A stretch of DNA of 47,866 nt from an uncultured Ruminococcus sp. (GTDB lineage: Bacteria; Bacillota; Clostridia; Oscillospirales; Acutalibacteraceae). Each line of letters starts with the position of its first letter. The stretch's first letter is position 1. Below the pieces are notes generated by a model. The model did not search any database, was not told the DNA's origin, and worked only from the letters and a program-made list of their open reading frames with translations. Below, one piece after another: positions 2,871-47,866 of this stretch. The stretch is taken from assembly GCA_902777275.1 (NCBI GenBank), contig CACYTI010000012.1, positions 115,841 to 163,706 of the forward strand, given 5' to 3'. The position numbers and the translations under genes were made by a program.

Positions 2871-3599
2871 ATGGAACTGTATGATATGCACTCACACATT
2901 CTGCCTGATTTTGACGACGGCGCCAAAGACGTTGAAACCGCTTTGGAACTGATCGATCTGCTCCGCAAACAGGGTGTGCGCAATATATGTCTTACTCCTC
3001 ATTATTATACTGATGAAATAAGTTACGAAAAATATCTCGAAAAACGTCAGATAGCCTTTGAAAAATTTAAGCCGTTCATACCCTCGGACATCAATATTGT
3101 CTTGGGCAGCGAGGTTTACGTAACCGATTATCTGTTTAACAACGATGACATTTCAGGAATAACCTACGGCAAATCCCGCTACATACTCACTGAGTTTCCG
3201 TACAATATAACTCTTTCGGACCAAAACCTGAAGCAGTTCTATATGCTGACTCAGAACTACGGTCTGCACCCTGTTATTCCTCATGTTGAGCGCTATAATT
3301 ATTTGATCAGCCACCCCGAAACGATAGAGCAGCTTCAGGAGATCGGCGTCATCATTCAAACAAACATTTCAAGATACGCAAACAACGTTTCTGCCTTTAA
3401 AAGGCGCAAGCTGCTCAAATACATCAGCCAAGGACTTATTGATATCTTAGGCAGTGACGCTCATTCGCTGACTCACAGCTCGCCTGTAGTTTATACCGAG
3501 GCTATAGATAATATAGCGAAAAAATGCGGCGAGCACGCTGTTGAACGCATGATGAAGAAGTCCGCCAGGATTTTCAGGAAAGCTCTCGGCGAGCCGTAA
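2871..3599 (+). CDS. CpsB/YwqE-family PHP-domain tyrosine-protein phosphatase
   Basis: The protein has 242 residues and opens with the PHP metal-binding signature DMHSHILPDFDDGA. Further likely metal ligands are LTPHYY, GSEVYV, VIPHVERY and the late GSDAHS. This arrangement is that of the manganese-dependent tyrosine phosphatases CpsB, CapC and YwqE, which remove phosphate from bacterial tyrosine kinases that control capsule export. No capsule genes or tyrosine kinase lie here, so its substrate is uncertain. It follows leuB by 8 nt with AGGTG as the ribosome site, so co-transcription is likely. The family call is firm, the role is inferred. Confidence 0.88.
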   Translation: MELYDMHSHILPDFDDGAKDVETALELIDLLRKQGVRNICLTPHYYTDEISYEKYLEKRQIAFEKFKPFIPSDINIVLGSEVYVTDYLFNNDDISGITYGKSRYILTEFPYNITLSDQNLKQFYMLTQNYGLHPVIPHVERYNYLISHPETIEQLQEIGVIIQTNISRYANNVSAFKRRKLLKYISQGLIDILGSDAHSLTHSSPVVYTEAIDNIAKKCGEHAVERMMKKSARIFRKALGEP

Positions 3600-3652
3600 A
3601 AGTGATTGCTTTCAATTAATTTCGATAAATATTAATAAATTTAAAAAAATAC

Positions 3653-3681
3653 TTGCATTTTTGGAAGAAGTGTAGTATAAT
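3653..3681 (+). promoter_or_regulatory. Sigma-A promoter of rpmE
   Basis: TTGCAT (3653-3658) and TATAAT (3676-3681) have an optimal 17-bp spacer and lie 36 bp upstream of the rpmE start codon. Confidence 0.8.
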
Positions 3682-3717
3682 CGATATGTTAATTGTGTAA
3701 ACAGGTAGGTGAAAAGA

Positions 3718-3921
3718 ATGAAAGAGAAAATCCATCCTAAGTATGGGCAGACAACAATTACTTGTGCTTGCGGTAATGTTATCGAAACAGGTTCAACCAG
3801 AAAAGATATCCGTGTTGAAATTTGTTCCAAGTGCCATCCTTTCTACACAGGAAAGCAGAAGCTTGTTGATACCGGCGGACGTGTTGACAGATTTAAAAAG
3901 CGTTTCAACATCACAAAATAA
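3718..3921 (+). CDS. rpmE: 50S ribosomal protein L31 (zinc-binding type)
   Basis: L31 lies on the large subunit near the central protuberance and bridges it to the small subunit. The 67-residue product starts [10 protein letters not shown] and has the two CxxC-like knuckles (CACG at residues 16-19 and [13 protein letters not shown]), so it is the C+ form that holds zinc, and not the zinc-independent paralogue made under zinc starvation. The ATG at 3718 is preceded by AGGTAGGTG; a GTG at 3709 lies inside this ribosome site. It has its own promoter and terminator, so it is a single-gene unit. Confidence 0.97.
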
Positions 3922-3936
3922 TCTTTTGCAACTCAT

Positions 3937-3966
3937 AAAGCGGCACTTGTGTGCCGCTTTATTTTT
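3937..3966 (+). terminator. Intrinsic terminator of rpmE
   Basis: A perfect 10-bp stem (AAAGCGGCAC / GTGCCGCTTT) with a TTGT loop is followed by ATTTTT. Confidence 0.9.
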
Positions 3967-4007
3967 CGGCAGCGTGACGGCAACATGATGTTGCATCCAT
4001 GGCGCCT

Positions 4008-4287
4008 TTGGACAGATTCATATTAACAGGACTTCCGTTAACGGCGCGTCTGAACGAGATAGATTTTTTAAACTTTAGGCAATGTGAGGTTGTGCTAAGG
4101 GTGCCTTTTTAAATTTGACATTAACCGAATATCCATAAACAGTAACTCCGTCAATTTAATAGAATATAAAAATGTTTTCTTAATATTTGTAGGGACAGCC
4201 CTTGCGGCTGTCCGGCAGTAAAGGAAGACGTATACCAATCAGTTTTAGCGTTTGATAGTACAGAAATGTTATTTTGGACAGATTCAT
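4008..4287. repeat. 280-bp non-coding block bounded by a direct repeat
   Basis: TTGGACAGATTCAT occurs at 4008-4021 and again at 4274-4287. Between them there is no credible gene, but GGGACAGCC-CTTGC-GGCTGTCC (about 4192-4212) forms a strong hairpin. The copies could be target duplications around an inserted palindromic element. This block fills most of the gap between rpmE and the YigZ gene. Confidence 0.5.
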
Positions 4288-4331
4288 TACAAGGTTGTTT
4301 TTAAGCTTTTGGCAGCAGGAGGTGTTTTAGT

Positions 4332-4967
4332 ATGTCAGATGATTATAAAACCGTAAAAAAAGAGGCGTCGGACGAATTCACCGAGAAGCGTTCGCGCTTT
4401 ATAGGCTGGTGCAAGCCCGTCAAAACCGAGGAGGAGGCGACGGCGTTTATAAACGAAAAACGCTCAAAGCATTGGGACGCGCGTCACAATGTCTACGCCT
4501 ACGCTCTGCGCGAGGGCAACCTAAAGCGTTACAGCGACGACGGAGAGCCGTCGGGCACTGCGGGAATGCCCGTGCTTGACGTTATCCTGAAAAACGGTCT
4601 GACCGACGTTTGCGTTGTTGTAACGCGCTATTTCGGCGGGATTCTTTTAGGAACAGGCGGCTTGGTGCGCGCCTACTCTCAGGCTGCAAAGCTCGCCGTT
4701 GAAGCGGGGGAGATCGTTCTAATGGAAAAGTGCGCCCTCTGCTCCCTGAGCTGCTCCTATAACCGTTACGGCAAGGTTTCCGCCATTGTCGCCGAGCATT
4801 CCGCGGGCTTGGACGACACGGTTTATGAGGCGGACGTGGTGCTTAAATTTCACATAAAGCCCGATAAGCTTCCGCTGCTCTCAAAAAAGCTTGCCGACGC
4901 AACCTCGGGAGAAGTGACAATAAACACGAAATCAGAGGGCTTTTTTCCTTGTTCACCGAAGGATTGA
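4332..4967 (+). CDS. YigZ/IMPACT family protein
   Basis: The protein has 211 residues. The N-terminal UPF0029 (Impact) domain is recognised by KRSRFIGWCKPV, the KHWDARHNVYAYAL motif, SDDGEPSGTAGMP and VVVTRYFGGILLGTGGLVRAYS, which are hallmarks of the family. A DUF1949-type domain fills the C-terminal third. Bacterial members such as E. coli YigZ are linked to translation or RNA binding by structure only; the function is not established. The start has AGGAGGTG 8 nt upstream. It stands alone between non-coding DNA and dnaG. Confidence 0.92.
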   Translation: MSDDYKTVKKEASDEFTEKRSRFIGWCKPVKTEEEATAFINEKRSKHWDARHNVYAYALREGNLKRYSDDGEPSGTAGMPVLDVILKNGLTDVCVVVTRYFGGILLGTGGLVRAYSQAAKLAVEAGEIVLMEKCALCSLSCSYNRYGKVSAIVAEHSAGLDDTVYEADVVLKFHIKPDKLPLLSKKLADATSGEVTINTKSEGFFPCSPKD

Positions 4968-5095
4968 TGATTTTCCGATTATGATTTTGAGTTTTTTCCT
5001 TATTTTTCAAATTTTTTAAAATAATTAAAAGGTATTTTGCGAATAACTGCGAATAAAGTATATAGAAACCGATTATAACAATACCGGAGCGTCAA

Positions 5096-6862
5096 ATGAA
5101 ATTCACCGAAAGCTTTTTACAAGAACTTAAAATGCGCAATGAGCTTGCTGATGTTGCCGCTTCTTACGTCAGCCTTAAACGAAGGGGCAGAAATCTGATT
5201 GGCTTATGTCCGTTTCACGGCGAAAAGACCCCGTCCTTCAACATCTATACCGAGGACAATCACTTTTATTGCTTCGGCTGCGGCGCGGGAGGCGACGTGA
5301 TTTCATTTATAATGCGCATTGAAAACCTCGATTATGTCGAGGCGGTAAAATATCTGGCTCAGCGCGCGGGAATGGATCTTCCCGAAAACTCCTACGACGA
5401 CAGTATGTCGCGGCTGCGCAAGCGTATTTTTGAGGCGAACCGCGAGGCGGCGCACTTCTATTACAAGTCGCTTTATCTGCCGGTCGGCAGGGAAGGGCTC
5501 GACTACTTTCACTGCAGAATGCTCAGCGACAGAACGATAAGGCATTTCGGTCTGGGCTTTGCCGATGACGACTGGACTTCCCTTACAGCCCACCTTAAAT
5601 CGCTCGGCTTTTCCGAAAACGAGCTTGTCGCGGCTAATTTAGCGGTTCAGCGGCGCAGCGGCAACGGAGTTTACGACCGTTTTACAAACCGCGTTATGTT
5701 CCCGATAATCGACCCGCGCGGCAACGTTATAGCCTTCGGCGGCAGGATAATGACCGACCAAAAGCCGAAATATCTCAACACCGCCGACACGCCTGTTTTT
5801 AAAAAGAGCGAAAATCTGTTTTCTCTGAACAACGCGAAGAACTCCGGCAGCCGCACTCTGCTTTTATGCGAGGGCTACATGGACGTCATCGCCGTGAATC
5901 AGGCGGGCTTTTCAAACGCCGTTGCGACGCTCGGCACCTCGCTTACGACCGAGCAGGCTATGCTGATGAAGCGGTACGCCGACGAGGTTATCATCTGCTA
6001 TGACGCTGACGAGGCGGGGCAGAAGGCTACCTCCCGGGCGATACCTATTCTGCGCGATGCGGGGCTTGTTATCCGCGTCCTGACGATTCCGAACGGCAAG
6101 GACCCCGACGAGTTTATCCGTTCCAAGGGAGCCGACGGTCCCGCGGCATTCGCCGCCGTCATCGAACGCAGCGGCAACGACATTGATTACCGCCTGCAAA
6201 AGCTTCGCGGCGAATTCAACCTTGAAACGTCTGACGGCAAGGTTGCATATCTTGAGGCGGCTTCCAAAATAATAGCTTCCGTCGTCAGCCCTATCGAGAG
6301 AGACGTTTACGCTTCAAAGCTCTGCAAGGAGTTTGAAATCGACAAAACCGCCTTCAACGCGCAGCTTCAAAAGCTTGACAAAAGCCGTTCGCGCGAGGAA
6401 AACCGCAGGCAGCAGCAAAAAATCCGCGCCGAATTGAGCGGCACCGCCGACCGTTTTGACGCAGACAGGGCAAAGGAGCGCCGAAGCTCCTCGGCTGAGG
6501 AAGCGCTTGTGGTGTATTTAGTCAACAATCCCGACTCATGCGATTATATTTCCTCGGAAATATCGCCCGGGCAGTTTAAAAACTCCCTGATGCGGCGCTA
6601 TTATGAATATTTCCTTGAAAGAATTAAAAGCGGCAAGGATCCTTTGAATAATACAACCGCCGACTTTTCGCGGGAAGAAAACAACCGCGTTTACAAAATG
6701 CTCACAAAATACGCCGGAGTAGCCCAAACAAAGCAGACTCTCGGCGAATATATAAAAGTCATACGTGAGGAAAGCGCAAAGCCAAAGCGCGGCGACGTTG
6801 AAAAAATGTCGGGCGACGAGCTTAACGCTTACCTTGAAAAGATAAGGAATTCCAAAAAGTGA
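5096..6862 (+). CDS. dnaG: DNA primase
   Basis: DnaG makes the RNA primers for lagging-strand synthesis together with the replicative helicase. The 588-residue protein has the CHC2 zinc finger near residues 39-65 ([11 protein letters not shown] and [11 protein letters not shown]), the RNA polymerase core with [19 protein letters not shown], and the TOPRIM metal site ([12 protein letters not shown], then [12 protein letters not shown]). The C-terminal helicase-binding part, from about residue 440, is highly charged and diverged as usual. The rpoD start codon lies 14 nt downstream, giving the classic dnaG-rpoD operon. A weak promoter (TTGCGA near 5037, then TATATA) may drive it. Confidence 0.97.
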
Positions 6863-6875
6863 AAGGAAAGATACT

Positions 6876-7970
6876 ATGGCACAAGAAAAAAGATCGCTTT
6901 TCAAAGAGCTTGTTGAACTGGGAAAGCAAAAGGGACAGCTCACAAACCAGGACATTTTAGACGCTATCGGCGAGCAGGACTTTGACCCCGAAAAGCTTGA
7001 AAAGCTGTATGACATGATTGAGGCTCAGGGTATCGAAATAGTCGAGGATTTTGACGACCTTAAGCTTGACGACATCGACATCACGATCGACGACAACAAG
7101 GATGAGGACAACCCCACCCCCTCGGGAGAGCAGAGCATTACGATTGACGACCCCGTAAAGGTCTATCTCAAGGAGATAGGCAGGGTGCCGCTTCTCTCGA
7201 GCGAGGAAGAGATCGACTTGGCTATCCGCATTCAGAACGGCGACGTGGCGGCAAAGCAGCGTCTTTCCGAAGCCAACCTCCGCTTGGTCGTTAGCATAGC
7301 AAAGCGTTATTTAGGCAGAGGAATGCAGTTCCTTGACCTTATCCAGGAGGGCAACCTCGGCTTGATCAAGGCTGTTGAAAAATTCGATTACACCAAGGGC
7401 TTCAAGTTCTCAACCTACGCCACATGGTGGATCCGTCAAGCTATAACCCGCGCTATCGCGGATCAGGCGCGCACGATCAGAATTCCCGTTCACATGGTTG
7501 AAACCATAAACAAGGTAAAAAAGGTGCAGAGCCAGCTCCTTCACCAAAACGGTCACGAGCCTTCTCCCGATGAAATCGCGGAAGAGATCGATATGCCCGT
7601 TGACAAGGTTCGCGAGATAATGCGCGTTGCTCAGGAGCCTGTTTCGCTTGAAACCCCGATAGGCGAGGAGGAGGACAGCCACTTAGGAGACTTCATTCCC
7701 GATAACGACGCCCCCGCGCCTGCCGACGCCGCTTCTCACACCATGCTGCGCGAGCAGCTTGCCGACGTGCTTTCAACACTTACCCCGCGTGAGGCAAAGG
7801 TGCTCAGACTGCGCTTCGGTCTTGAGGACGGCAGAAGCCGCACGCTTGAGGAGGTGGGCAAGGAGTTCAACGTTACAAGGGAGCGTATCCGCCAGATCGA
7901 GGCAAAGGCGCTCAGAAAGCTCCGACATCCCAGCCGTTCAAGAAAGCTAAAGGACTATCTTGATTATTAA
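6876..7970 (+). CDS. rpoD: Primary sigma factor (sigma-70/SigA)
   Basis: This is the housekeeping sigma factor that directs RNA polymerase to promoters. The 364 residues hold a short region 1.1, region 1.2 with [20 protein letters not shown], region 2 with [20 protein letters not shown] and [17 protein letters not shown] (the -10 recognition helix), region 3, and region 4 with the [23 protein letters not shown]. The length is typical of Firmicutes SigA, with no large non-conserved insert. GAAAGGAAAG precedes the ATG. The promoters I see in this window (TTGACA, 17 bp, TATAAT) fit its expected specificity. Confidence 0.97.
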
Positions 7971-7987
7971 TATTCCGGAGCAGAATT

Positions 7988-8356
7988 ATGATTGGTTTTG
8001 AAGAATGCGCCGCAATGCTTGATGAAATCGCCGACGCCATGCCGTATGAGCTTTACCGCGACTTGAACGGAGGAATAAGTGTTGTGCCGGAGCACAAATA
8101 CCATCCCGTTGCGCGCAACAATGATCTGTACATTTTAGGCGAATATAAGCAGGATCTGATCGGCAACTCGATTGTCCTGTATTACGGCTCCATAGCCCGG
8201 GTATACGGCTGTCTCCCGCGCGAAGAGTTCTACAAAAAGCTTGAACATATCCTCCACCACGAGGTTCGCCACCACAACGAGTATTTGGCAGGCTCCGAGG
8301 ACTTGGAGCTCTGGGACGACGAACAGATTTTAAAATACCTTAACCGCAATAAATAA
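7988..8356 (+). CDS. Small putative zincin (HExxH) protein
   Basis: The protein has 122 residues. Near residue 95 it has HHEVRHHNEYLAG, which contains HEVRH, an HExxH zinc-metallopeptidase motif; a short acidic tail with a further glutamate follows. It is much smaller than classical proteases and resembles the short metallopeptidase-like proteins (PF06262-type) seen in many Gram-positive genomes, whose activity is unproven. There is no signal peptide or membrane segment. It begins 17 nt after rpoD with GGAG as the ribosome site and ends before the terminator at 8391, so it is probably the last gene of the dnaG-rpoD transcript. Confidence 0.72.
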   Translation: MIGFEECAAMLDEIADAMPYELYRDLNGGISVVPEHKYHPVARNNDLYILGEYKQDLIGNSIVLYYGSIARVYGCLPREEFYKKLEHILHHEVRHHNEYLAGSEDLELWDDEQILKYLNRNK

Positions 8357-8390
8357 AGGGAACCTCTGACAATTCCCTAAACAGTACATA

Positions 8391-8421
8391 AAAAACACGT
8401 GGGCAAAACCTGCGTGTTTTT
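8391..8421 (+). terminator. Intrinsic terminator after the dnaG-rpoD transcript
   Basis: AAAAACACG pairs with CGTGTTTTT across a short loop, and the 3' arm itself supplies the U-tract. Confidence 0.75.
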
Positions 8422-8463
8422 GCTTTATGGAGAACTGCCGCGAAAAACGCGGTTATTGGGATA

Positions 8464-8492
8464 TGGACAACGCCTCTGTCATGTGATATAAT
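8464..8492 (+). promoter_or_regulatory. Promoter of the two-component operon
   Basis: TGGACA (8464-8469) and TATAAT (8487-8492) are 17 bp apart, about 85 bp upstream of the kinase start. Confidence 0.65.
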
Positions 8493-8575
8493 ATAATTCA
8501 ACAAATTATTCATCATATATAATCGGATTTTTATACAAATGCAAACCGCTGTTGTAAGACGAGAGAAGTGACAGA

Positions 8576-10423
8576 ATGAAAATTTCAAAACGCAGGATTT
8601 GGACTATCATTATTTTCGGCATAGTGCTTATACTGTTCGGCTGGCTGATTTTAAATAACGCGATATACGCTGCAAGGATCGACACAAGCATGAACTTATC
8701 CGTTATGCTCGAAGGACAGTATTCCATCGACGGCGGAGAGTGGAAATATTGTGACGGGGCGGATCCGATAAAAGAACACTTTAAAAAAGCCGAATTCAAG
8801 GGAAAATTTGTTGATCTGGTTGAATTTTATCACGATATGTACATTACGTCAAAGAACGTCTGGTTCACTATCAAATATTCCGACGGAAAAGAGTTTTACA
8901 GTAACAGGCGAGATGACCTCTCGTCGTTTATTTCAGAATCGGAAATGATGCAGAAGGACAGAATGCTTTCGACCCCGGGTTATTCGGTATCTCAGTTCAT
9001 CCTTGACTACGACGAAGCTTTCCATGAGAATTTGGGTGAAGAAATGACATTGGAGGTGGAGTATCCCTACGACGGAAGAGGTCCGGTTTTTTCAGACGTG
9101 TTTAATGTTACGATGAGCTTTTCCGACGGAATATATTTCCGCTTCTTATTTGAAGCCCTTCCCGTTATACTCATCTCGATTTTAGTGTGCTTTTTCGGCG
9201 TGTTCTTTTTCCCGATAGCAAGCGTGATTCAGGGAAAATTTGAAACAAAATACATTTCCTTCGGCGCTCTCTGCTTTAGCGGCGGCTTCTATACGATCAT
9301 GCAATCAGCCTGTGATTATCTCAATCTGTGGATAATGGATCCGACAACCGTTATGATGACCGACAGGCTTTCGCTGTTCTTTTTTGTGATCGCTGTAGTT
9401 TTTTATCTGAAATCCGTCCTGAGCGGGAAAACAGCAAAGACGATCGCCGCCGTAATGGGAACGGCTTTTACCGCGTTCGCTGTTGCGGCGACGATTCTGC
9501 ACATGACCGATACCGCAGATTTTATAAAAACTACGGGTATTCTGTACTATGCTCTTGCGGCGGGCGCGTTGGTTTTGACGCCGCTGCTTTGTATGGAAAT
9601 CAGGGGAAGAAAGGGCTTTGATTTGTTCGATTACCTCATGTCATGGGTTCCGCTCACGTTGTGTATACTTTTAGATATTGCCGGAGTGTTGATTTACGGC
9701 AGAGGCGCTTTCTTTATAAAAATCGGGCTTGCTTTGACAATACTCTATCAGATGGTGCGCTTCGGGCTCGACCTGAGAAAGCAATATGTAGAAGCTATAC
9801 GGTATCAGCAGGTTCAGAAAGAGCTTTATGAGGCGAAGGTCAGTGTTATGACCTCGCAAATCCGCCCGCATTTCATGTATAACGCCCTTACATCAATAGC
9901 GATGATGTGTACGATAAATCCCAAAACCGCGCAGAAGGCTACCGTGACCTTTGCAAAGTATCTGCGCGGAAACATGGATTCGCTCAAGCAAACGGCTCCC
10001 GTGCCCTTTTCGCAGGAGCTGGAGCATTTGAAAAAGTATTTATATATAGAAAAGCTCAGATTTGACGATTTGCTCAATATCGAGTATGACATTCAGGCGA
10101 CGGATTTTGAGCTGCCTCTGCTCAGCATTCAGCCCCTTGTTGAAAATGCCGTCAAGCACGGCGTCGGTATGAAGGAGGACGGCGGCACGGTCAAGATATC
10201 CACCCGCGAAACCGAAACCTCGTATGAGGTCATTATAGAGGACGACGGAGTGGGCTTTGACGTAAACGAACAAAAGAACGACGGCAGAACGCACATCGGT
10301 ATGGAAAACACAAAAAAACGCCTGCACGATATGTGCGGAGGCGAGGTTATAATTACAAGTAAGGTCGGAGAAGGCACCACAGCAAGGGTGATAATTCCGA
10401 AAAAGGAGGAAAAAGGAAAATGA
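8576..10423 (+). CDS. LytS/YpdA-like membrane sensor histidine kinase
   Basis: The protein has 615 residues. One N-terminal membrane segment (about residues 9-31) is followed by a ~160-residue extracytoplasmic domain and then some seven hydrophobic helices, an architecture like the 7TMR-DISM receptors. The cytoplasmic part has the His_kinase box with the phospho-acceptor in SQIRPHFMYNALTSI (about residue 427) and a HATPase domain with QPLVENAVKHG, DDGVGFD and HIGMENTKKRL. It should phosphorylate the response regulator whose ATG overlaps its stop by 4 nt. The ligand is unknown. The start has AGAGAAGTGAC upstream. Confidence 0.9.
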   Translation: MKISKRRIWTIIIFGIVLILFGWLILNNAIYAARIDTSMNLSVMLEGQYSIDGGEWKYCDGADPIKEHFKKAEFKGKFVDLVEFYHDMYITSKNVWFTIKYSDGKEFYSNRRDDLSSFISESEMMQKDRMLSTPGYSVSQFILDYDEAFHENLGEEMTLEVEYPYDGRGPVFSDVFNVTMSFSDGIYFRFLFEALPVILISILVCFFGVFFFPIASVIQGKFETKYISFGALCFSGGFYTIMQSACDYLNLWIMDPTTVMMTDRLSLFFFVIAVVFYLKSVLSGKTAKTIAAVMGTAFTAFAVAATILHMTDTADFIKTTGILYYALAAGALVLTPLLCMEIRGRKGFDLFDYLMSWVPLTLCILLDIAGVLIYGRGAFFIKIGLALTILYQMVRFGLDLRKQYVEAIRYQQVQKELYEAKVSVMTSQIRPHFMYNALTSIAMMCTINPKTAQKATVTFAKYLRGNMDSLKQTAPVPFSQELEHLKKYLYIEKLRFDDLLNIEYDIQATDFELPLLSIQPLVENAVKHGVGMKEDGGTVKISTRETETSYEVIIEDDGVGFDVNEQKNDGRTHIGMENTKKRLHDMCGGEVIITSKVGEGTTARVIIPKKEEKGK

Positions 10424-39058: not shown

Positions 39059-40039
39059 ATGCAGGATAATGTAAGACCCGAATCAATGGAAAGAATCACA
39101 ACTCCCGAGCTTGCGGACGCGTTTATCGCGGAGCAGCTTGAGGCATTAAAAGCTCAGATTGGCGACAAGAAGGTGCTGTTGGCGCTTTCCGGCGGTGTGG
39201 ACAGCTCGGTTGTAGCTGCGCTGCTCATCAAGGCTATCGGCAAAAATTTCGTGTGCGTACACGTTAACCACGGTTTGCTCAGAAAGGGCGAGCCCGAGCA
39301 GGTTGTTGAGGTGTTCCGCAATCAGATGGACGCGAACCTCGTTTATGTGGACGCCGTTGACCGTTTCCTTGATAAATTGTCGGGCGTCGCCGAACCCGAA
39401 AAGAAGAGAAAGATAATCGGCGCGGAGTTTATCCGCGTGTTTGAGGAAGAGGCGAGAAAGCAGGATGGCATCGAATTTCTCGCTCAGGGCACCATTTATC
39501 CCGATATCATTGAGAGCGACGGCGTTAAGGCGCACCACAACGTCGGCGGACTTCCTGAGGATCTGCAGTTTGAGCTTGTTGAACCGCTTAAATTCCTCTT
39601 TAAGGACGAGGTAAGAGTAGTTGGCAAGGCGCTCGGTCTGCCCGACGGCATGGTTTACCGTCAGCCGTTCCCGGGCCCCGGACTCGGAGTTCGCTGCCTC
39701 GGAGCCATCACCCGTGACAGACTCGAAGCCGTGCGTGAGAGCGATGCGATCCTCCGCGAGGAGTTCGCGAAGAACGGCCTTGAGGGCAAGGTATGGCAGT
39801 ACTTCACAGCCGTGCCGGACTTTAAATCAACAGGCGTAAAGGACGGCAAGCGCACATTCGCCTATCCCGTCATCATCCGCGCCGTAAACACCAAGGACGC
39901 CATGACTGCTACAGTCGAAAACGTTCCCTTCGACCTGCTGCAGCACATAACCGCAAGAATCACAACAGAGGTTGAAAATGTAAACAGAGTCCTCTTCGAC
40001 CTCACCCCCAAGCCTTCGGGAACTATTGAGTGGGAGTGA
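39059..40039 (+). CDS. guaA: GMP synthase ATP-pyrophosphatase subunit (no glutaminase domain)
   Basis: Converts XMP to GMP with ATP. The 326-residue protein has the PP-loop LLALSGGVDSSVVAALLIKA, CVHVNHGLLRKGE, the FLAQGTIYPDIIES motif, GGLPEDLQFELVEPLKFLFK, QPFPGPGLGVRCLG and the dimerisation domain ending LTPKPSGTIEWE. Usual bacterial GuaA is ~510 residues with an N-terminal class I glutamine amidotransferase; here that domain is absent and homology begins near the normal junction, as in the split archaeal enzymes. It would need a separate GuaA amidotransferase or free ammonia; none is in this window. The Tn7-like element starts just downstream. Confidence 0.93.
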   Translation: MQDNVRPESMERITTPELADAFIAEQLEALKAQIGDKKVLLALSGGVDSSVVAALLIKAIGKNFVCVHVNHGLLRKGEPEQVVEVFRNQMDANLVYVDAVDRFLDKLSGVAEPEKKRKIIGAEFIRVFEEEARKQDGIEFLAQGTIYPDIIESDGVKAHHNVGGLPEDLQFELVEPLKFLFKDEVRVVGKALGLPDGMVYRQPFPGPGLGVRCLGAITRDRLEAVRESDAILREEFAKNGLEGKVWQYFTAVPDFKSTGVKDGKRTFAYPVIIRAVNTKDAMTATVENVPFDLLQHITARITTEVENVNRVLFDLTPKPSGTIEWE

Positions 40040-40112
40040 TATGTAATGTCCTCATTAACTCTCGGTTAACCTCAAAAGCTCCAAATGATGCAAACTGAAG
40101 TATCCTCGGAGG

Positions 40113-40199
40113 CTAAGGTTATATCCCTTCATAGCGGGTTGAGATTCTTAATCGACCTAAGGTATATCCCTTCATAGCGGGGTCAAATTCAGAATCGAT
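40113..40199. repeat. Two tandem copies of a ~44-bp repeat after guaA
   Basis: CTAAGGTTATATCCCTTCAT... (from 40113) and CTAAGGTATATCCCTTCATA... (from 40157) share AGCGGG and an ...ATCGA end at a period of 44 bp. They lie between the guaA stop codon and its terminator, in the 3' untranslated region. Confidence 0.75.
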
Positions 40200-40232
40200 C
40201 CAGGAGAAAGACGGACAAACAACAACATAAGT

Positions 40233-40290
40233 AAAAGCCTTGTGCCAATGGATGCCGCAAAGCGGCGCACCTTTGGCTAAGGCTTTTTTT
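40233..40290 (+). terminator. Large branched terminator downstream of guaA
   Basis: AAAAGCCTTGTGCCAA pairs with TTTGGCTAAGGCTTTT around an inner GCCGC-AAA-GCGGC hairpin, followed by T7. Confidence 0.85.
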
Positions 40291-40370
40291 CGTGCTCTGA
40301 AAGCCTGATTACATTTCAGAAATTCGGTAAGTTAAAGTCCCGTCTTTCTCTCCTAGTCGTATCTCCCTCT

Positions 40371-40406
40371 AAAAGAAAAAGGAGAAAAAAGAAGAAGAGA
40401 GAAGAA
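40371..40406 (+). other. 36-nt pure polypurine tract
   Basis: An uninterrupted A/G run lies in a ~250-bp purine-biased stretch. It could form triplex DNA, a known preferred target structure of Tn7 transposition complexes; the link is speculative. Confidence 0.5.
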
Positions 40407-40472
40407 TAAATGGCGAATATTAAGGAAATTAGACTAAGGAGAGAGGGTAATGAGGGAAAGAGAAGGAACCGA

Positions 40473-40612
40473 AGCGAGCCGTCTTCTAAGCCGCGACTGC
40501 GTGCGAGAAGGTGGGCGAGCTGAGGGGAGTAAAGGAGAAGGGAGTTAGGAGAGTAGAAGGGACGTAGCGAGCCGTCTTCTAAGCCGCGATAGCGTGCGGG
40601 AAGGTGGCGAGC
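40473..40612. repeat. Two ~48-bp direct repeats 93 bp apart in the left flank of the transposon
   Basis: AGCGAGCCGTCTTCTAAGCC then GCGA..GCGTGCG.GAAGGTGG and CGAGC occur from 40473 and from 40566. No gene covers them. Confidence 0.8.
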
Positions 40613-40655
40613 GGAGGGAGAACGAAGGCGAAGGACGGAAAAACGGTGAGGATAG

Positions 40656-40694
40656 ACGACTTCGCACCAAATGACGATAAACGACTTCGCACCA
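40656..40694. repeat. ACGACTTCGCACCA repeated with 25-bp period; candidate TnsB sites
   Basis: Copies at 40656-40669 and 40681-40694, each followed by ATGAC. Repeats of this length and spacing near tnsA are expected at the end of a Tn7-like element, where TnsB binds. I could not find inverted copies on the right side within the window. Confidence 0.55.
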
Positions 40695-40809
40695 TGACAT
40701 AGTGTTTTCCGATAAACCCATTTTTCGGGATTGTGCTATTACCCTTCTTAACTTACTGATATTCTGATAACCACTGGACTTTTGAGGTGTTCGTGTGCCT
40801 CGGAGCATC

Positions 40810-40884
40810 CCGAAAAAACATCCCCCGAAAAACCCCGAAAAACCGCACGTAATTTTTCGGAGCATTTTTCGGAGCATTTTTCGG
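40810..40884. repeat. Mirror array of CCGAAAAA / TTTTTCGG upstream of tnsA
   Basis: CCGAAAAA at 40810, 40825 and 40835 faces TTTTTCGG at 40853, 40865 and 40877 (the last three in a perfect 12-bp period). The set forms a large dyad ending just before the tnsA ribosome site, so it may be an operator for the tns operon or a cluster of TnsB sites. Confidence 0.75.
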
Positions 40885-40904
40885 AAAATCGGAAAGGAGT
40901 AAGT

Positions 40905-41270
40905 ATGAGGTCAAAGAGAATCAAGGATCGCTGTACGAAGATGCAGCTAAGTAAGTGCGATACCACTGCCCGCCTTTATGATCAGGTTATGATCGCTTTT
41001 GCTGGGCTGTTAGAGCGCAACAAGCAAGTCAGTAAGATTATGTGCAACGTATCAATGGACGGGCTGGAAGAAGGGGAATTTACCTCTGATTTTGTCTGTG
41101 TCAAAGCCAATGGAGATTATATGGTCAGAGAATGTACCTGGCGTAAGAAGCTAACCCTGCCTCGAACGGCAAGGCTTTTGGAAGCATCCCGTAAGTATTG
41201 GGCGCGGCGCGGCGTTCAGGATTGGGGTATTATCGTGGAGAAGGAGCGTAGTAATGATGAAGCAAACTAA
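40905..41270 (+). CDS. tnsA: TnsA-like heteromeric transposase endonuclease subunit
   Basis: The 121-residue product matches the short TnsA-like proteins of Firmicutes Tn7-like elements: EGEFTSDFVCVKANGDYMVR then ECTWRKKLTLPRTARLLEAS and RKYWARRGVQDWGIIVEKE. D62 and E76 are the likely catalytic acids of the restriction-nuclease fold; a lysine two residues after E76, as in the usual ExK/QxK motif, is not present, so activity is uncertain. TnsA cuts the 5' ends in Tn7, giving cut-and-paste transposition. AAGGAG precedes the ATG; the tnsB start overlaps its end. Confidence 0.8.
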   Translation: MRSKRIKDRCTKMQLSKCDTTARLYDQVMIAFAGLLERNKQVSKIMCNVSMDGLEEGEFTSDFVCVKANGDYMVRECTWRKKLTLPRTARLLEASRKYWARRGVQDWGIIVEKERSNDEAN

Positions 41271-43083
41271 GCTGTTGCAGTCAGCAGACGGAAAACAGAT
41301 TATCCGTGTCCTTGATACAAATGGTAATAAGGCTTTGATTATTGACTGTATCCATCCTGCTATGCCGCTATATGTAGATGCGGACACTCTGACAAGTTAT
41401 GTCCCGTGTGATGATGATACCCTCTGTGAAAAGACAGGATATTTGCCTGAATCTCTCGACAGTTTGAGCCCTCTCAGAAGGAAAACAGCATTAGAGCGTT
41501 ATACCGTCATAGCTGGGGTATTAGCCTCTCTCGGATGCAAAGGTCAGATCGGCTATAATCGCAAGAGCAGCTGAGGAATATAAGGTCAGCAAGCAAACGG
41601 TCAGGGCTTACTTGCAGAAGTATCTGATCTATCAGGACATCGGGGTATTAGCCGATAAGGAGAAGAAAGCGCGGGAGATGACTGACACAGAGAAAACCAT
41701 GCGCTGGGCTTTAAACCGATTCTATTACACGCAGCACAAAAATTCTCTCTCAACAGCTTATGCTATGATGCTGAAAGAGAAGTACACAGACGAAAACGGG
41801 GAGCTGCTTGATCATCCTACGATCAGTCAGTTCAAGTATTTTTATCGGACGCATCGGAAGATGGAAAACTTTTATATCTCTCGGAACGGGCTGAAAGACT
41901 ATCAGATGAACGACCGTCCTCTTCTCGGTGACGGCTTACAGCAGCTTGCCCCAAATATCGGTACAGCTTTTCTCGACGGCACGATTTGTGACATCTACCT
42001 GGTAAACGATAAAGGACAGCTTGTAGGTCGTCCCGTGCTGGTGGCTGCTGTTGATGTCAATACTTCACTGTGCCTCGGATATGCGCTGTTATGGGAAGGC
42101 GGCGTGTATTCTCTCCAACAGCTCATGTTGAGTATTCTTTCAGACAAGGTTAAGCTATGCCGAAGTATGGGGATCGTTATCAGCTCGGATCAGTGGTCAA
42201 ATATGGGATGTCTGCCTGGTAAGATGTACTGTGATCGCGGGTCTGAATATGTCGGCAGTACCTTTGAGCAGATTACGGAGCTCGGTATTACGCTGGTTGA
42301 ATTGCCGCCGTTTCGTGCGGAGTTGAAGGGCTCGGTTGAACGCTTCTTTGGTCTTGTGCAGGATTCATATAAGACTGTTCTGAAAGGGCGCGGTGTTGTG
42401 ATGCCCGATTACGAAAAACGCGGCTCTCACGATTACAGGAAGGATGCCGTGCTCACGATGCAGGAGTTTCACAGGATTATCGTCAGGTGCATCGTCCACT
42501 ACAATTCAGAACGTGTCATTACGAGTTATCCTTATACAGCAGATATGCTGGAGCGTCGTATTTCTCCCCACGCTGCGGATATTTGGAATTATAAGGCATC
42601 ACAGGCAGGAGCAAATATGATCCCCGTTTCCGAGAATGAGTTGATTATGACGCTGTTGCCCCGTACCGAAGGGACATTTAGCCGATATGGGCTTAAGGTC
42701 AATGGGCTGCGTTTTATGCCGAAGGATACAAGGAACAGTATCTCTCAGGCGGGAAAGCTGTTGCAGCATATAACCCCGACGATGCAAGTAAGGTTTGGCT
42801 GAAGGAGAAAGACGGGCGGTTTGTTGCGTTCAGCCTGATAGAATCTCGATTTGAAGGGAAATCGCTTGTCGATATTCAGGAAGAGAAACGACAGCAAAAG
42901 CACCTGGTCAATGATGCTACCGAGGAAAGCTATAAAGCAAAGGTAGAGCTTATGCGGTTTATCGAATCGGTTATTGCGGGAAAGGCTCCGTCTGAGAATG
43001 TTCAGATCAAAGGCGCAAGAGCCGTTAGGTCAAAGGAGCGGCGTAAAGCGCATAAAGCGCTGGAGGTGGTTGTTGATGAATGA
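41254..43083 (+). pseudogene. tnsB: TnsB-like DDE transposase, interrupted by two compensating frameshifts
   Basis: Read as one chain it would be ~609 residues. Part 1 (41254 to about 41548) gives MMKQTKLLQSADGKQIIRVL and ends in LERYTVIAGVLASLG; part 2, shifted by +1, gives AIIARAAEEYKVSKQTVRAY and the integrase core with acidic residues in GTICDIYLV, MYCDRGSEYVG and LKGSVERFFGLVQ; part 3, shifted back by -1 at TTTT (42712-42715), gives AEGYKEQYLSGGKAVAAYNP and ends RRKAHKALEVVVDE at 43083. Stops in the wrong frames lie at 41572 and 42800. These are two mutations, assembly errors or recoding; without repair no complete transposase would be made. Confidence 0.85.
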
Positions 43084-44308
43084 AGCCGTATTGAAAATCA
43101 TGCCGAAGATGCTTATGGGTGAAGAGCTGGATGCAGCCCTTCGGGTCCTTCCTGCGTATGATCCATATATGCGGGAACAAGGAAAGGTTGAGCGGCTTAT
43201 GGGATTAGAAAGCCTTTACCACGTATTTATCCCAAGTCAAATGAGCCGCGAGATATACAGCAAGCTCTATCTGTCTATGCTGCACAGCTTACAGAAGAAG
43301 AGCGGGATTTTGGCGGTGCAGCAGTCTTATGAAAACCGAAGGGCGATAAGGCAACAGTCGTTTGATTCAATCCTTGGCGGCAGCGAGGCGTGGACCATTA
43401 TCGGGGACAGTGGAATCGGAAAATCAGCGAGTGTATCAAGAGGGCTAAGCCTTTTAATGGAAAAGCCGTTTTTCGATTTAGGGGATGCGAAGGTCGTGCC
43501 GTGCTTGACGGTCCAAACTCCCGCCGATGCTTCCTTGAAGGGATTTCTGTTTGAAGTTCTCAGAAAGCTCGATGAACACCTGGAAACGCATTATTATGAA
43601 CACGCACGCCGAACAGGAGCGACGGTGGATATTCTGATAGGAATGATCTCTCAGGTCAGTCTTTCTCACGTCTGTCTGCTGGTATTGGACGAGATACAGA
43701 ACATCGTCAATTCCAAAAACGGTAAGGCGATAGTCGGGACCCTGACGCAGCTTATCAATAGCTCAGGAATATCGATCTGTATGGTCGGGACCCCTGAAAC
43801 ATCCCTATTTTTCAGTCAGAGTATGATACTGGCAAGACGATCCCTGGGGCTTGAATACCATTCTATGCCGTATGATGATACCTTCCGTAGCTTTTGCAGC
43901 ATCTTATACGGATACTGTTATACGCATCAGCACGATCCGTTTGATGAAGCTGTATGTACTTGGCTGTACGGTCATTCGGGCGGTAATGCTTCTATCGTTG
44001 TATCGCTGATACACGATGCACAGGAGATAGCAATATTAGAAAGCTATGAGAAGCTGGATATAAAGTCGCTTACACTGGCTTATGAGCGGCGGCTTAGTAT
44101 GCTGCATGATTACATTGACGTTCCGCGTATGAACGGCAAAAAGGCGGGAAAGACAAAAGTGGTCAAGTCCCTGCCATCACGGGAAGAATCGCAGACGGAC
44201 CAGGGAACAGATATTTACAGGACGATTATGAGTGCGAAGGAAGATAAGCGGGATATCCTTGAGGCTCTGAAAAACAGCGGGATCAGCATAAGAGAGGTAG
44301 CCGTATGA
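43076..44308 (+). CDS. tnsC: TnsC/TniB-like AAA+ ATPase
   Basis: The 410-residue protein binds ATP and DNA and links target choice to the transposase. Walker A is IIGDSGIGKSASVSRGL, Walker B is VCLLVLDEIQNIVNSKNGK, sensor I is ISICMVGTPETSLFF. The N-terminal ~110 residues and C-terminal ~100 are helical. GGAGGTGG precedes the ATG at 43076, which overlaps the end of tnsB (GATGAATGA). Confidence 0.92.
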   Translation: MNEAVLKIMPKMLMGEELDAALRVLPAYDPYMREQGKVERLMGLESLYHVFIPSQMSREIYSKLYLSMLHSLQKKSGILAVQQSYENRRAIRQQSFDSILGGSEAWTIIGDSGIGKSASVSRGLSLLMEKPFFDLGDAKVVPCLTVQTPADASLKGFLFEVLRKLDEHLETHYYEHARRTGATVDILIGMISQVSLSHVCLLVLDEIQNIVNSKNGKAIVGTLTQLINSSGISICMVGTPETSLFFSQSMILARRSLGLEYHSMPYDDTFRSFCSILYGYCYTHQHDPFDEAVCTWLYGHSGGNASIVVSLIHDAQEIAILESYEKLDIKSLTLAYERRLSMLHDYIDVPRMNGKKAGKTKVVKSLPSREESQTDQGTDIYRTIMSAKEDKRDILEALKNSGISIREVAV

Positions 44309-45720
44309 TAGCACAGTTTCCGACACCATACCCCGACGAGTTATTATACAGTCAGATTTGCCGTTATCACATCCGCAGCGGAAATTATTGCGCGACATTT
44401 ACCGTTGACGACATTTATCATCACAGGACGGTACATCCCGATTTTCTGTATCTCAACGCCTTTACCGACGATGCGCTGCGCTGGATTTGTAAGGATACGA
44501 CACTTCAAGAGGTTATTATGACCAGGACGATGTTTCCCGTCTATGGGCGTTTCATTCCGAAGGACAGGCGTGAAAAAGCGTTTTCGATGCTGTGCGCTAT
44601 GGAAGGAAATTGGGATAACCTACTCTTTGCTCCTATCAAGAGAGGGGATCGGTTTCTGAGGTATTGCCCGATGTGTGCTGCTGAGGACAGGACCGCATAT
44701 AGAGAAACATACTGGCATCGGAACGCGCAGATATGTAAACTGAACATCTGCCCTGAACACGGCTGTAAGCTCGTCGATTCCAGCGTCAGAATATCAAGCA
44801 GGACGACACCGAATTTCTTTGATGCACAGAGTATCATCCCCGTCGATACAGAAGCCGTTATGTGTGAGAACGCTGCCGAAATTCAGCTTGCTCAGTATAT
44901 GGATGCCGTTATGCGTAGTCCCCTTGATCCTGATTCCGATACCCCCGTAGGATCCTTCCTTCACTCTAAGCTGGGCGAGAAGTATTGCAACAGGTCGGGC
45001 TTGGTCCGAGATATGGAACAGCTATACGCTGATTATGCTGCATATTATGATGGGGTCGAGTTGATGCCTGAGTATATGATGCAAAAGACGTTCAACGGCT
45101 ACAAATGGGATTATTACAATGTATGTCAGCTCGGTATGTTCTTAGGAATCACGGCTCAGGAGTTAGCCGAACTGCCGTATGAGGTCAAGCTCTACGGGCA
45201 GGAATCGCTTTTTGATACTCTCTCTGAGAAATACGGTGTAGATCGTGATACAGTCCGAAAAATCGGATTTGAAGTGCTCAGGTATTCAAATCAGCAGGCA
45301 CGGATGAAGCGCAAATCGGGACCCCGTGCTGCACAGTGGGAAAAGCTGGATGATGAAATGCTGCCGAAGATACAAGCGTTTGTCGATGCATTTTATCAGG
45401 ACACAGACAGACCTAAAAGGCTCAGTGTAAAGCTGGTCGAAAGAAATCTGAACCTTCCGCAGAAGCAGCTTAGCAAGCTGCCGAAGAGCTACGAGTATAT
45501 TCAAAGCCGTATGATGTCTATGCCTGAACATTGGGCGCGATCCGTAATATGGGCTTACTACGATATGACAGCATCCTCAGCCCCTATGTCCCGATATAAG
45601 ATACTTAAGCGGTTGGGGATGCGGTCAGGGGACCTTGAACGCTGCCTCCCTTATATCAAGGATAAGAAGGTGTTAGCGTTCCTCAGCCCGTCGGATGTGA
45701 GTATCAAAACTGAGGTTTGA
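44305..45720 (+). CDS. tniQ: TniQ/TnsD-family target-selection protein
   Basis: The 471-residue protein has the TniQ N-terminal domain (FPTPYPDELLYSQICRYHIR) and zinc finger (RYCPMCAAEDR...ETYWHRNAQICKLNICPEHGCKL, C-x2-C and C-x2-H type). It carries a long C-terminal part with SVKLVERNLNLPQKQLSKLP-like HTH segments, so it is closer to the site-specific TnsD than to the short TniQ of CRISPR-guided elements. It would recognise the attachment site, plausibly the guaA 3' end. ATGA overlap with tnsC. Confidence 0.9.
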   Translation: MIAQFPTPYPDELLYSQICRYHIRSGNYCATFTVDDIYHHRTVHPDFLYLNAFTDDALRWICKDTTLQEVIMTRTMFPVYGRFIPKDRREKAFSMLCAMEGNWDNLLFAPIKRGDRFLRYCPMCAAEDRTAYRETYWHRNAQICKLNICPEHGCKLVDSSVRISSRTTPNFFDAQSIIPVDTEAVMCENAAEIQLAQYMDAVMRSPLDPDSDTPVGSFLHSKLGEKYCNRSGLVRDMEQLYADYAAYYDGVELMPEYMMQKTFNGYKWDYYNVCQLGMFLGITAQELAELPYEVKLYGQESLFDTLSEKYGVDRDTVRKIGFEVLRYSNQQARMKRKSGPRAAQWEKLDDEMLPKIQAFVDAFYQDTDRPKRLSVKLVERNLNLPQKQLSKLPKSYEYIQSRMMSMPEHWARSVIWAYYDMTASSAPMSRYKILKRLGMRSGDLERCLPYIKDKKVLAFLSPSDVSIKTEV

Positions 45721-45759
45721 CGAATAATACCAAAACTAATGCCGATTCCAGGCTAAAAC

Positions 45760-45772
45760 ATCTATATTAGAT
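45760..45772. promoter_or_regulatory. Palindrome upstream of the resolvase, candidate res subsite
   Basis: ATCTA-TAT-TAGAT is a perfect 13-bp palindrome in the gap between tniQ and the resolvase genes, where resolvase binding sites usually lie. Confidence 0.4.
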
Positions 45773-45808
45773 ATACAGAAACTACCGATGGTCAGAAAGG
45801 GTATAGAT

Positions 45809-45976
45809 ATGAAACACGATAATCAAGATGGTAGATTTGAATTGCAGCGTACCCGCATCTGTAACATCTTAATCGAAATCGCAAATAATCACAAGGATTT
45901 GATCCTTGCGTTAAAAAGGAAGGAGAAAGATGATTTACGGCTATTGCAGGATCAGCAGAAAGACACAGAACATTGA
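45809..45976 (+). CDS. Small protein overlapping the resolvase gene
   Basis: A 55-residue frame (MKHDNQDGRFELQRTRICNI...LLQDQQKDTEH) has GAAAGGG 7 nt before its ATG and overlaps the resolvase start by 47 nt. It is helical and charged, with no known motif. It may be a small regulator or a translational coupling leader. Confidence 0.45.
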   Translation: MKHDNQDGRFELQRTRICNILIEIANNHKDLILALKRKEKDDLRLLQDQQKDTEH

Positions 45977-46637
45977 TCGCCAGGTCAGGAATATCACAGC
46001 AGCATATCCCACGGCGCACATCATCAAAGAGGCGTTCACGGGCACAAAGATAGTCGGGCGAAAGGAGCTGGATAAGCTGTTGAAGGTTCTCAAAGAAGGA
46101 GATACCGTTGTATTTGACAGCGCATCCAGGATGTCAAGAAACGCAGATGAAGCGGTTGGTCTTTATCAGGAGCTATATGATCAGGGAATCAGCCTGATTT
46201 TTTTGAAAGAGCCGCACATCAACACGGCTGTCTATAAGGAAGCTCTGGAGCGTCAAGTCGCGGTGAATCTGAGAACGGGAAACGCTGCAACCGACAGCTT
46301 TATCAAGGATATTATCGCCGCCTTGAACGGCTATACGATTGCTCTTGCCAAAGAGCAGATACGGCTTGTCTTTGAACAGGCGCAGAAAGAGGTCGATGAT
46401 CTACACCAAAGGACAGCCGAAGGTCTTATAACGGCGAAGATGAACGGTAAGCAGATAGGTCAACCCAAAGGAGCAAAGCTGCAAACGAAGAAGAGTATCA
46501 GGGCTAAGAAGGTTATCAGGAAATACAGCGCAGACTTTGACGGTTCGTTACAGGACAAGGATGTAATCAAGCTGGCAGGGATCAGCCGTAATACGTTCTA
46601 TGAGTATAAACGACAGCTTAGGGAAGATCGGAGATAA
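45930..46637 (+). CDS. Serine-family resolvase/invertase
   Basis: The 235-residue recombinase has the catalytic serine in IYGYCRISRKTQNIDRQVRN, VVFDSASRMSRNADEAVGLY (the R..SR region), a long helix (LAKEQIRLVFEQAQKEVDDL) and a C-terminal HTH (DKDVIKLAGISRNTFYEYKR). It would resolve cointegrates, as TniR does in Tn5053-type elements. AAGGAGAAAG is the ribosome site. Its 3' end is duplicated at 46983-47084. Confidence 0.92.
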   Translation: MIYGYCRISRKTQNIDRQVRNITAAYPTAHIIKEAFTGTKIVGRKELDKLLKVLKEGDTVVFDSASRMSRNADEAVGLYQELYDQGISLIFLKEPHINTAVYKEALERQVAVNLRTGNAATDSFIKDIIAALNGYTIALAKEQIRLVFEQAQKEVDDLHQRTAEGLITAKMNGKQIGQPKGAKLQTKKSIRAKKVIRKYSADFDGSLQDKDVIKLAGISRNTFYEYKRQLREDRR

Positions 46638-46640
46638 TTT

Positions 46641-46678
46641 TTTAATTCACCCCACCACAATAAACATCCTTTACTATA
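46641..46678 (+). repeat. CCCCACCACAA repeat, copy 1
   Basis: TTTAATTCACCCCACCACAA plus ATAAACATCCTTTACTATA lies immediately after the resolvase stop; copies 2 and 3 are at 47042 and 47635. Confidence 0.8.
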
Positions 46679-46982: not shown

Positions 46983-47041
46983 ATCAGCCGCGATACGTTC
47001 TATGAGTATAAGTGGTAGATTAGGGAAGATCGCAAAAATTT
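46983..47041 (+). pseudogene. Degenerate copy of the resolvase 3' end
   Basis: ATCAGCCGCGATACGTTCTA onward matches the resolvase tail at 46581 with several changes; translation gives ISRDTFYEYKW then a stop. The match continues through copy 2 of the CCCCACCACAA repeat. It shows that a second, related element once ended here. Confidence 0.8.
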
Positions 47042-47084
47042 TTTAATTCACCCCACCACAACAAGCATTCTTTACTATAATAAT
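47042..47084 (+). repeat. CCCCACCACAA repeat, copy 2
   Basis: TTTAATTCACCCCACCACAA then CAAGCATTCTTTACTATAAT and AATAAT, directly after the degenerate resolvase tail. Confidence 0.8.
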
Positions 47085-47555: not shown

Positions 47556-47741
47556 ATGGCTTATGTTAGAAAGGCTCGTAACCAGTGGGATATTGAAACG
47601 AACTACGGTTACGGATGGGAAACAGAAAGCAGCTACCCCACCACAATAAGCATTCTCCACTATAATAATAAACTCATTTTCTCCTCCCAATCAGTAATGG
47701 TCATACTCACTTATTATCTTTTCTCAATCCCTCTATCATAG
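47556..47741 (+). pseudogene. Truncated conjugative-element gene fused to repeat DNA
   Basis: It begins MAYVRKARNQWDIETNYGYG WETE, like small proteins beside the previous gene in conjugative elements. At SSYPTTISILHYNNK it runs into copy 3 of the CCCCACCACAA repeat, so its natural C-terminus was lost when that repeat-bearing DNA was inserted. AAGGAGGTG precedes the ATG. Confidence 0.6.
47635..47672 (+). repeat. CCCCACCACAA repeat, copy 3
   Basis: ACCCCACCACAATAAGCATT then CTCCACTATAATAATAA, at the point where the preceding gene is cut and 35 bp from the recombinase stop codon. Confidence 0.75.
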
Positions 47742-47866
47742 CATCACTCGGTTCTTGAGATGGTACTTTTACCCAATGCCCGGACGTATCATACTTAGGA
47801 TAGTTATAGCGCCACTTGTCGTAATCGTCCTTGCTGATTTCGCCCTTGCGGTATTTTTCACGCATT
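47707..47866 (-). CDS. Large serine recombinase, C-terminal fragment (cut by the window)
   Basis: On the minus strand the frame reads MREKYRKGEISKDDYDKWRY then NYPKYDTSGHWVKVPSQEPS and ends EGLRKDNK. The KYRKGEIS..(E/D)YDKWRYxYP...VPSQExSD ending is typical of large serine recombinases of conjugative elements. The rest lies to the right of the window. Its 3' end is 35 bp from repeat copy 3, so that repeat may be an attachment-site relic. Confidence 0.75.
   Translation of the reverse strand, partial: MREKYRKGEISKDDYDKWRYNYPKYDTSGHWVKVPSQEPSDAMIEGLRKDNK

Follow-up and report, generated by a model that had tools for sequence, protein, structure and literature searches.

The 47,866-nucleotide stretch of DNA analysed here (the window; contig CACYTI010000012.1 of assembly GCA_902777275.1, an uncultured Ruminococcus sp.) carries tns genes directly behind a guaA-like gene. 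Does the 3' end of guaA act as an attachment site for Tn7-like transposons, as that of glmS does for Tn7? A sequence-only reading of the window had proposed a Tn7-like transposon at this place, with the guaA 3' end as a candidate attachment (att) site. Comparison with related loci supported both proposals, and we consider it very probable that the window holds the guaA-proximal part of a Tn7-like transposon from a family that homes to the guaA 3' end. At the level of sequence comparison, this conclusion rests on the position and orientation of the elements, the offset of their TGT terminus from the guaA stop codon, target duplications and an empty site in relatives, the match between TniQ clade and target gene, and the spacing of insertions at a second target gene, ppdK.

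Genes of the window element

The following features were assigned in the window (lengths in amino acids, aa, or base pairs, bp):

39059..40039, + strand: attachment gene, a guaA paralogue of 326 aa limited to the GMP synthetase domain (NCBIfam guaA_Cterm, E value 1.9e-132)
40042..40046, no strand: TGTAA, the one copy seen (left) of a candidate 5-bp target duplication, reaching to 7 bp past the stop codon (flank shared with loci L033 and L048)
40047..40699, + strand: guaA-side end region, bounded by the TGTCC terminus (7 bp past the stop codon) and an inner end-like motif (40683-40699)
40236..40290, + strand: hairpin resembling an intrinsic terminator, within the end and 3' of guaA (stem of -28.3 kcal/mol, then a T run)
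40905..41270, + strand: tnsA, 121 aa (Pfam TnsA N-terminal, E 0.0097, under the cut-off; relatives)
41230..43062, + strand: tnsB in three pieces with two frame changes (tblastn with the intact 605-aa TnsB of locus L084)
43076..44308, + strand: tnsC, AAA+ ATPase, 410 aa (Pfam AAA_22, E 1.7e-14; TniB, E 5.9e-14)
44305..45720, + strand: tniQ/tnsD-type target selector, 471 aa (Pfam TniQ, E 3.1e-16; Tn7 TnsD in PDB)
45930..46637, + strand: serine resolvase/invertase-type gene, 235 aa (Pfam Resolvase, E 1.3e-19)

Sequence comparison confirmed positions 40047-46637 as the guaA-side end and tns genes of a predicted Tn7-like transposon, with the gene order tnsA-tnsB-tnsC-tniQ and an end 7 bp past the guaA-like stop codon. 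The operon had been placed about 870 bp after that stop codon and reading away from it; tnsA starts at 40905, 865 bp downstream, and transcription is indeed directed away from the guaA-like gene. In Tn7 the tnsA end faces the attachment gene, and the same orientation, already noted in the sequence-only reading, was seen in the window and in 18 guaA loci of relatives. The TnsA of Tn7 is longer than the 121-aa TnsA of the window, which has matches of 36-60% identity in 77 of 80 related TnsB loci. TnsB is homologous over these 80 loci; the two window tnsB pieces that were scanned gave no Pfam hit, and the TnsB of L084 matched Mu-transpos_C with an E value of 4.6e-4, slightly below the cut-off. 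Relatives of the resolvase-type protein (54-57% identity) were found in L091, L092, L097, L100 and L154.

The tniQ product had been described as a long, TnsD-like protein with a zinc finger, and its sequence and fold bear this out. Its match to the Pfam TnsD model is weak (E 2e-4, 21 bits, cut-off 32.4), and it matches the sequence of Tn7 TnsD in PDB (8glu) with an E value of 2.8e-17. Residues C121, C124, C149 and H152 are the counterparts of the CCCH zinc-finger residues of Tn7 TnsD, numbered C124/C127/C152/H155 in the accessible text of PMC2918618. They are invariant in 25 of 25 aligned TniQ sequences (the window and 24 relatives chosen from 54 TniQ frames collected). The AlphaFold model of the protein (pLDDT, the predicted local distance difference test, 85.9; pTM, the predicted template modelling score, 0.66) had Tn7 TnsD (8glu_X) as its best PDB fold match, with a template modelling score (target) of 0.76 and an E value of 4.5e-9 over 316 alignment columns.

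A Tn7-like core is also found in CRISPR-associated transposons (CASTs), and a CAST whose guide RNAs chose guaA might be suspected from a 36-bp repeat with a small CCC/GGG palindrome, present in two copies inside the transposon end (starting at 40120 and 40163; 40120-40198). However, no Cas family was detected in the six element frames scanned (the far part of the element lies off the contig), no Rfam match reached the gathering threshold in the element, and the long tniQ encodes a TnsD-type fold. The core of the repeat has no further copy in the genome at up to three mismatches, and with just two copies genome-wide its CRISPR-like reading was dropped. We regard a CAST at this locus as extremely unlikely.

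The gene in front of the element had been named guaA. It does encode a GMP synthetase, but as a synthetase-only paralogue (hereafter guaA') whose 326-aa product lacks the amidotransferase domain. Contig C31 of this genome holds a further guaA, whose open frame measures 520 aa. Attachment genes of this amidotransferase-less kind (326-333 aa) were seen in the window and in L083, L087, L089 and L090, and the remaining 14 guaA loci have a longer frame (440-604 aa). Variation in the guaA 3' end falls mostly at wobble positions. Within the genus, the amidotransferase-less paralogue occurs alongside a full guaA (window 39059-40039; G000:C31:489-1427), and in several genomes, such as G411, G316 and G463, it lies near the full gene.

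Insertion points in related genomes

Scanning one genome per species with a TnsB profile confirmed 95 relatives, and 80 of these loci were retained; TniQ by itself, scanned against the genome collection, had confirmed none. Loci were labelled by the same-strand gene that immediately precedes tnsA. This gene was guaA in 18 loci, ppdK in 20, gpmI in one and serC in one; none of these four was present in 14 loci, and the contig was too short in 26. NCBIfam confirmed one example apiece of ppdK, gpmI and serC. The expectation that relatives would lie 3' of guaA was borne out for part of the family. Elements at guaA occur in several Bacillota families, and the named hosts include Sporomusa, Pelosinus, Propionispira, Megamonas, Pectinatus, Ruminiclostridium, Catenibacillus and Butyricicoccus. 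Behind gpmI (L095) and serC (L152) there is one relative each from this TnsB family, which hints at further target switches. At another locus (L019 in genome G049, reverse complement 3559-10001), frames that by eye resemble DNA methyltransferases directly follow guaA, and behind them lie truncated remnants of tnsC and tniQ; this locus is read as a decayed or defence-cargo derivative.

In 15 of the 18 guaA loci, 6-8 bp separate the stop codon from the TGT terminus, and the first element base of the window, at +7, falls within this range. Empty sites and 5-bp duplications had been suggested as a check on the att site, and both were found in relatives. In Sporomusa ovata (G552), AAAGA stands on both sides of a 47.6-kb element (373311-420888) on one contig, and in G572 ATAAG flanks an element at 963466-996446, again on one contig. 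In three further genomes, the 5 bp of the near flank are repeated at a far end on another contig: TAATA (G554), CTAAA (G553) and CAATA (G557). TGT...ACA ends with a 5-bp duplication were seen in five relatives; the window is readable at the near end alone. An empty site was found in G573, where the flank from beyond the S. ovata element lies about 160 bp past guaA at 91% identity; the initial 80 bp of the S. ovata flank do not match there. This far flank is present in seven of the 31 genomes searched, G552 included.

For the window itself, the 7 bp after the stop codon (TATGTAA) are common to L033 and L048, and the sequences diverge at 40047, so TGTAA is predicted to be the target duplication. 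No tns match was found in L033 and L048 within the 0.8 and 1.5 kb examined beyond guaA'. The inner end motif (CACCATGACA/TAGTGTTTTCC) resembles, by eye, motifs of L138, L084 (L016) and L149 (L018). A terminator-like hairpin lies within 300 bp of the guaA stop codon in 16 of 19 cases (the 18 loci and the window) as against 1.3% of mononucleotide shuffles, which suggests that the element supplies the end of the guaA transcript; the criterion misses L148, where a hairpin is visible by eye, and the count was kept at 16.

TniQ clades follow the target gene

A TniQ frame was obtained from 54 of the 80 TnsB loci, and L154 (guaA, 298 aa) was omitted from the trees for its length; a 54-row tree comprised the window and 53 loci, and a 32-row tree the window and 31 of those. 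On the 32-row tree, a single branch with 100/100 support separates 18 guaA rows, the window included, from 13 ppdK rows, and none of 500 shuffles was as low. A long-branch guaA row, L149, joins beside the ppdK clade, and the program flagged this join as possibly false. When unlabelled and contig-short rows were treated as groups of their own on the 54-row tree, ppdK required eight changes; the count for guaA is given with the contrary evidence below. The trees are midpoint-rooted only, so they do not fix the order of the guaA and ppdK targets.

In the ppdK elements, the distance from the stop codon to the element end varies from 6 to 17 bp in the 15 of 20 loci that were measured (L092, L099, L108 and L119 were left out, as was L158, where no TGTC-type end was seen near the ppdK stop codon). 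In 14 of these 15, 30-34 bp separate the element end from the codons for the conserved AAAQA; the exception, L137, was placed at 26 bp automatically, with another TGTCG 6 bp beyond. At ppdK the insertion point is held at a near-constant spacing from the conserved codons, and its spacing from the stop codon varies. The footprint of Tn7 TnsD covers +23 to +58 from the insertion centre in the accessible text of PMC2918618, and the same geometry fits the ppdK spacing.

These observations suggest the following course of events. A TnsD-type TniQ would bind the conserved 3' coding end of guaA (the codons for K-P-x-x-T-I-E-W-E) and recruit TnsC. TnsA and TnsB would then insert the element at 6-8 bp from the stop codon, duplicating 5 bp, with the tnsA end towards guaA. 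The gene would be left intact, and its transcript may be ended by the terminator that the element carries close to its terminus. Instead of guaA, another TniQ clade within this transposon family would read the ppdK end.

Other mobile elements at the guaA 3' end

The guaA 3' end appears to attract elements of another kind too. Paired direct repeats resembling integrase arms follow the guaA' stop codon in seven of 29 same-genus loci as against 2 of 1450 shuffles, for a motif defined after the data were seen; they lie at 58-59 bp in six of these loci and at another offset in L047. The genome's own full guaA is likewise followed by such repeats. In addition, window positions 47726-47866 match a stretch that other genomes (L028, L033, L036 and L048 among them), like contig C31 of the genome itself, have behind guaA or guaA', near integrase-arm-like repeats; the stretch from 47726 on probably belongs to an integrase-type element. 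The match at the contig end and the repeats together suggest that mobile elements of several kinds use the guaA 3' end.

Traces of guaA were also met at elements parted from the gene. In six loci, the last 12 bp of guaA (GAGTGGGAATAA; ending in TGA in L098) lie 6-9 bp before the element end with no guaA upstream. These are L085, L098, L103, L145 and L151, five of the 14 unlabelled loci, and the contig-short L120. The scan tolerated two changes, and the exact motif occurred in 1 of 1400 shuffled regions; matches with one or two changes, left uncounted, occurred in L086, L097, L106, L136, L140, L159 and L162. All seven genomes inspected (those of the six loci and of L106) carry guaA elsewhere. 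By eye, integrase-arm-like repeats follow a guaA copy in five of these seven, and one contig ends at the guaA stop codon. In L145, a phage-type integrase gene lies about 0.5 kb from the 12-bp guaA copy. We read these loci as cases in which later integrase elements split guaA from an older Tn7-like insertion, the alternative being insertion at a 12-bp look-alike.

Such findings invite the explanation that guaA 3' ends are a hotspot for several, chiefly integrase-driven, elements, and that the Tn7-like element was carried in with one of them or came to lie there by chance. The repeats behind guaA' and the full guaA, the match of the contig end and the five unlabelled loci with only the 12-bp remnant would all fit. 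Yet the near-constant offset of 6-8 bp in 15 of 18 loci is not expected of passive carriage, whole elements flanked by 5-bp duplications stand at guaA, in Sporomusa among others, and an empty site exists; the TniQ split tracks the target gene, and the ppdK spacing is constant. We therefore judge passive arrival to be very improbable and retain homing by a TnsD-type TniQ.

Evidence against guaA homing, and the state of the window copy

Several observations weigh against homing to guaA as the rule for this family or for this copy. The loci at ppdK (20 of 80), gpmI (one) and serC (one) contradict a rule of guaA alone, and 14 of 54 loci with adequate contig have none of guaA, ppdK, gpmI or serC upstream; nine of these 14 are unexplained. 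On the 54-row TniQ tree, guaA required nine changes. Among the guaA loci, L083 and L090, which by TniQ are the nearest guaA-labelled relatives of the window, have no TGT at the junction (by eye the terminus is TAT, at 6 and 7 bp), and in L156 the element starts about 110 bp past guaA. A candidate far end in Butyricicoccus (L149/G110), 19.8 kb from guaA, had no matching duplication and was not used; blast of this candidate against the rest gave matches of 12-13 bp at most. In the window, TnsA scored 16.9 bits against the Pfam TnsA-like model (E 0.0097), below the cut-off of 26.5, tnsB is broken by two frame changes, and just two of 29 same-genus loci (L033 and L048) share the 7 bp after the stop codon. 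The far end of the element was not found when the inner-end motif, with up to three mismatches allowed, was sought in the genome: apart from the known copy there were two 3-mismatch matches, which we took as chance. A search with the sequence downstream of guaA' in L033 did not find a right-hand TGTAA copy or far end either, its 11 matches being weak (E 0.003 over 38 bp for the best) and unconvincing.

The genes of the operon are in place, but tnsB is split into three pieces (tblastn matches at 41230-41526, 41534-42778 and 42712-43062), which had escaped notice in the sequence-only reading. With tnsB in this state and no far end found, the window copy looks decayed, and it has probably lost the ability to move by itself, provided that the frame changes are not errors of assembly; the sequences point to decay of this copy, not of the guaA-homing family. 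That the tns genes are the remnant of an old insertion with no current homing role is an explanation compatible with homing at the family level, and we give it slightly better than even chances. A 62-bp stretch spanning the resolvase 3' end, behind the operon (46581-46642), and repeated 402 bp downstream (46983-47044, 82%) also speaks for it. On the other side, the tnsA, tnsC and tniQ frames are open, and a tnsB of at least 552 aa in a single frame is common among relatives (68 of 79 loci). A further stretch, of 43 bp, occurs three times (at 46636, 47037 and 47622; 100, 93 and 65%), the last copy ending a small reading frame; the contig terminates at 47866.

Terminal cassettes in the Sporomusa/Pelosinus branch

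In the Sporomusa/Pelosinus branch, the terminus of the element is a cassette of about 250 bp with inverted ends (for example L138:8828-9076). Wherever both termini were readable (G552, G554 and G572), the cassette stands at both in direct orientation, with 99.6%, 100% and 87.8% identity, respectively, between the near and far copies. Between genomes the cassettes share 82-96% identity, and they are present in 13 of the 80 genomes searched, G552 included (E up to 1e-10). In G567, guaA is followed by AAAGA-cassette-AAAGA-cassette-TTAAAT-cassette (C1:3236722-3237483, L223), with a fourth cassette 4.6 kb on and then AAAGA; the third and fourth cassettes are 89.4% identical. Near-identity of the two terminal repeats was dropped as a general rule given G572 and G567. 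The first cassette of G567 stands alone at guaA+6 between two AAAGA copies, and no tnsA was found in the 1.5 kb examined after the third.

Tentatively, and as somewhat less likely than not, the layout of the cassette may be seen as that of a double-ended unit, with inverted TnsB-type ends and a central terminator, in an element organised like one with long terminal repeats. Such a unit could move by itself into guaA with TnsABC-TniQ or arise as a "solo end" when the terminal repeats recombine, and repeated homing to an occupied guaA would be possible. For the solo cassette of G567, insertion in its own right and a remnant of recombination are both conceivable. The window end region (40047-40699) contains no inverted arm of 16 bp or more, so a cassette is not claimed for the window element.

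Comparison with known systems and significance

The window element shares with Tn7 the gene order tnsA-tnsB-tnsC-tniQ/tnsD, the CCCH residues at equivalent positions, and insertion just beyond an intact conserved gene (Tn7 site in PMC2918618); TGT/ACA ends with a 5-bp duplication are likewise shared, here in relatives. It differs in the attachment gene (glmS as against guaA or ppdK), in the insertion point (about 20 bp past the glmS stop codon, 6-8 bp past that of guaA here), and in the resolvase-type gene that follows tniQ in the window, where no tnsE was recognised among the element frames scanned. Other Tn7-like elements also lie at conserved chromosomal genes: the accessible part of PMC11406308 (Annu Rev Biochem 2024) lists type I-F3 CASTs at guaC, yciA, ffs and rsmJ, Tn6230 at yhiN and Tn6022 at comM, and guaA is not among the Tn7-like sites named there. 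Unlike the present element, I-F3 CASTs mostly have their sites chosen by guide RNAs and Tn6022 inactivates comM, whereas guaA is intact here. Integrase-driven islands in guaA, such as the integrative mobilizable element (IME) Tn6591/GIsul2 (PMC8239412), use the same gene as their site, but with a site-specific recombinase and attL/attR, and the accessible text mentions no tns genes.

None of the titles and abstracts among the matches listed names guaA or ppdK as an attachment gene of Tn7-like elements, survey supplements and most subscription journals being outside the scope of that search. Passages on attachment sites in Faure 2023 (PMC10293859) and Benler 2021 (PMC8649781) likewise give no guaA or ppdK Tn7-like site; their supplements could list one.

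If the interpretation is right, the end of guaA, a metabolic gene that is widely conserved, would take its place beside glmS as a safe harbour that a protein reads for Tn7-like insertion, in Clostridia and relatives. The guaA/ppdK split of TniQ would provide natural pairs in which TnsABC are alike and the target differs, so that the DNA-reading part of TniQ could be tested by domain swaps, and the constant ppdK spacing tells where in the coding end the binding site might be sought.

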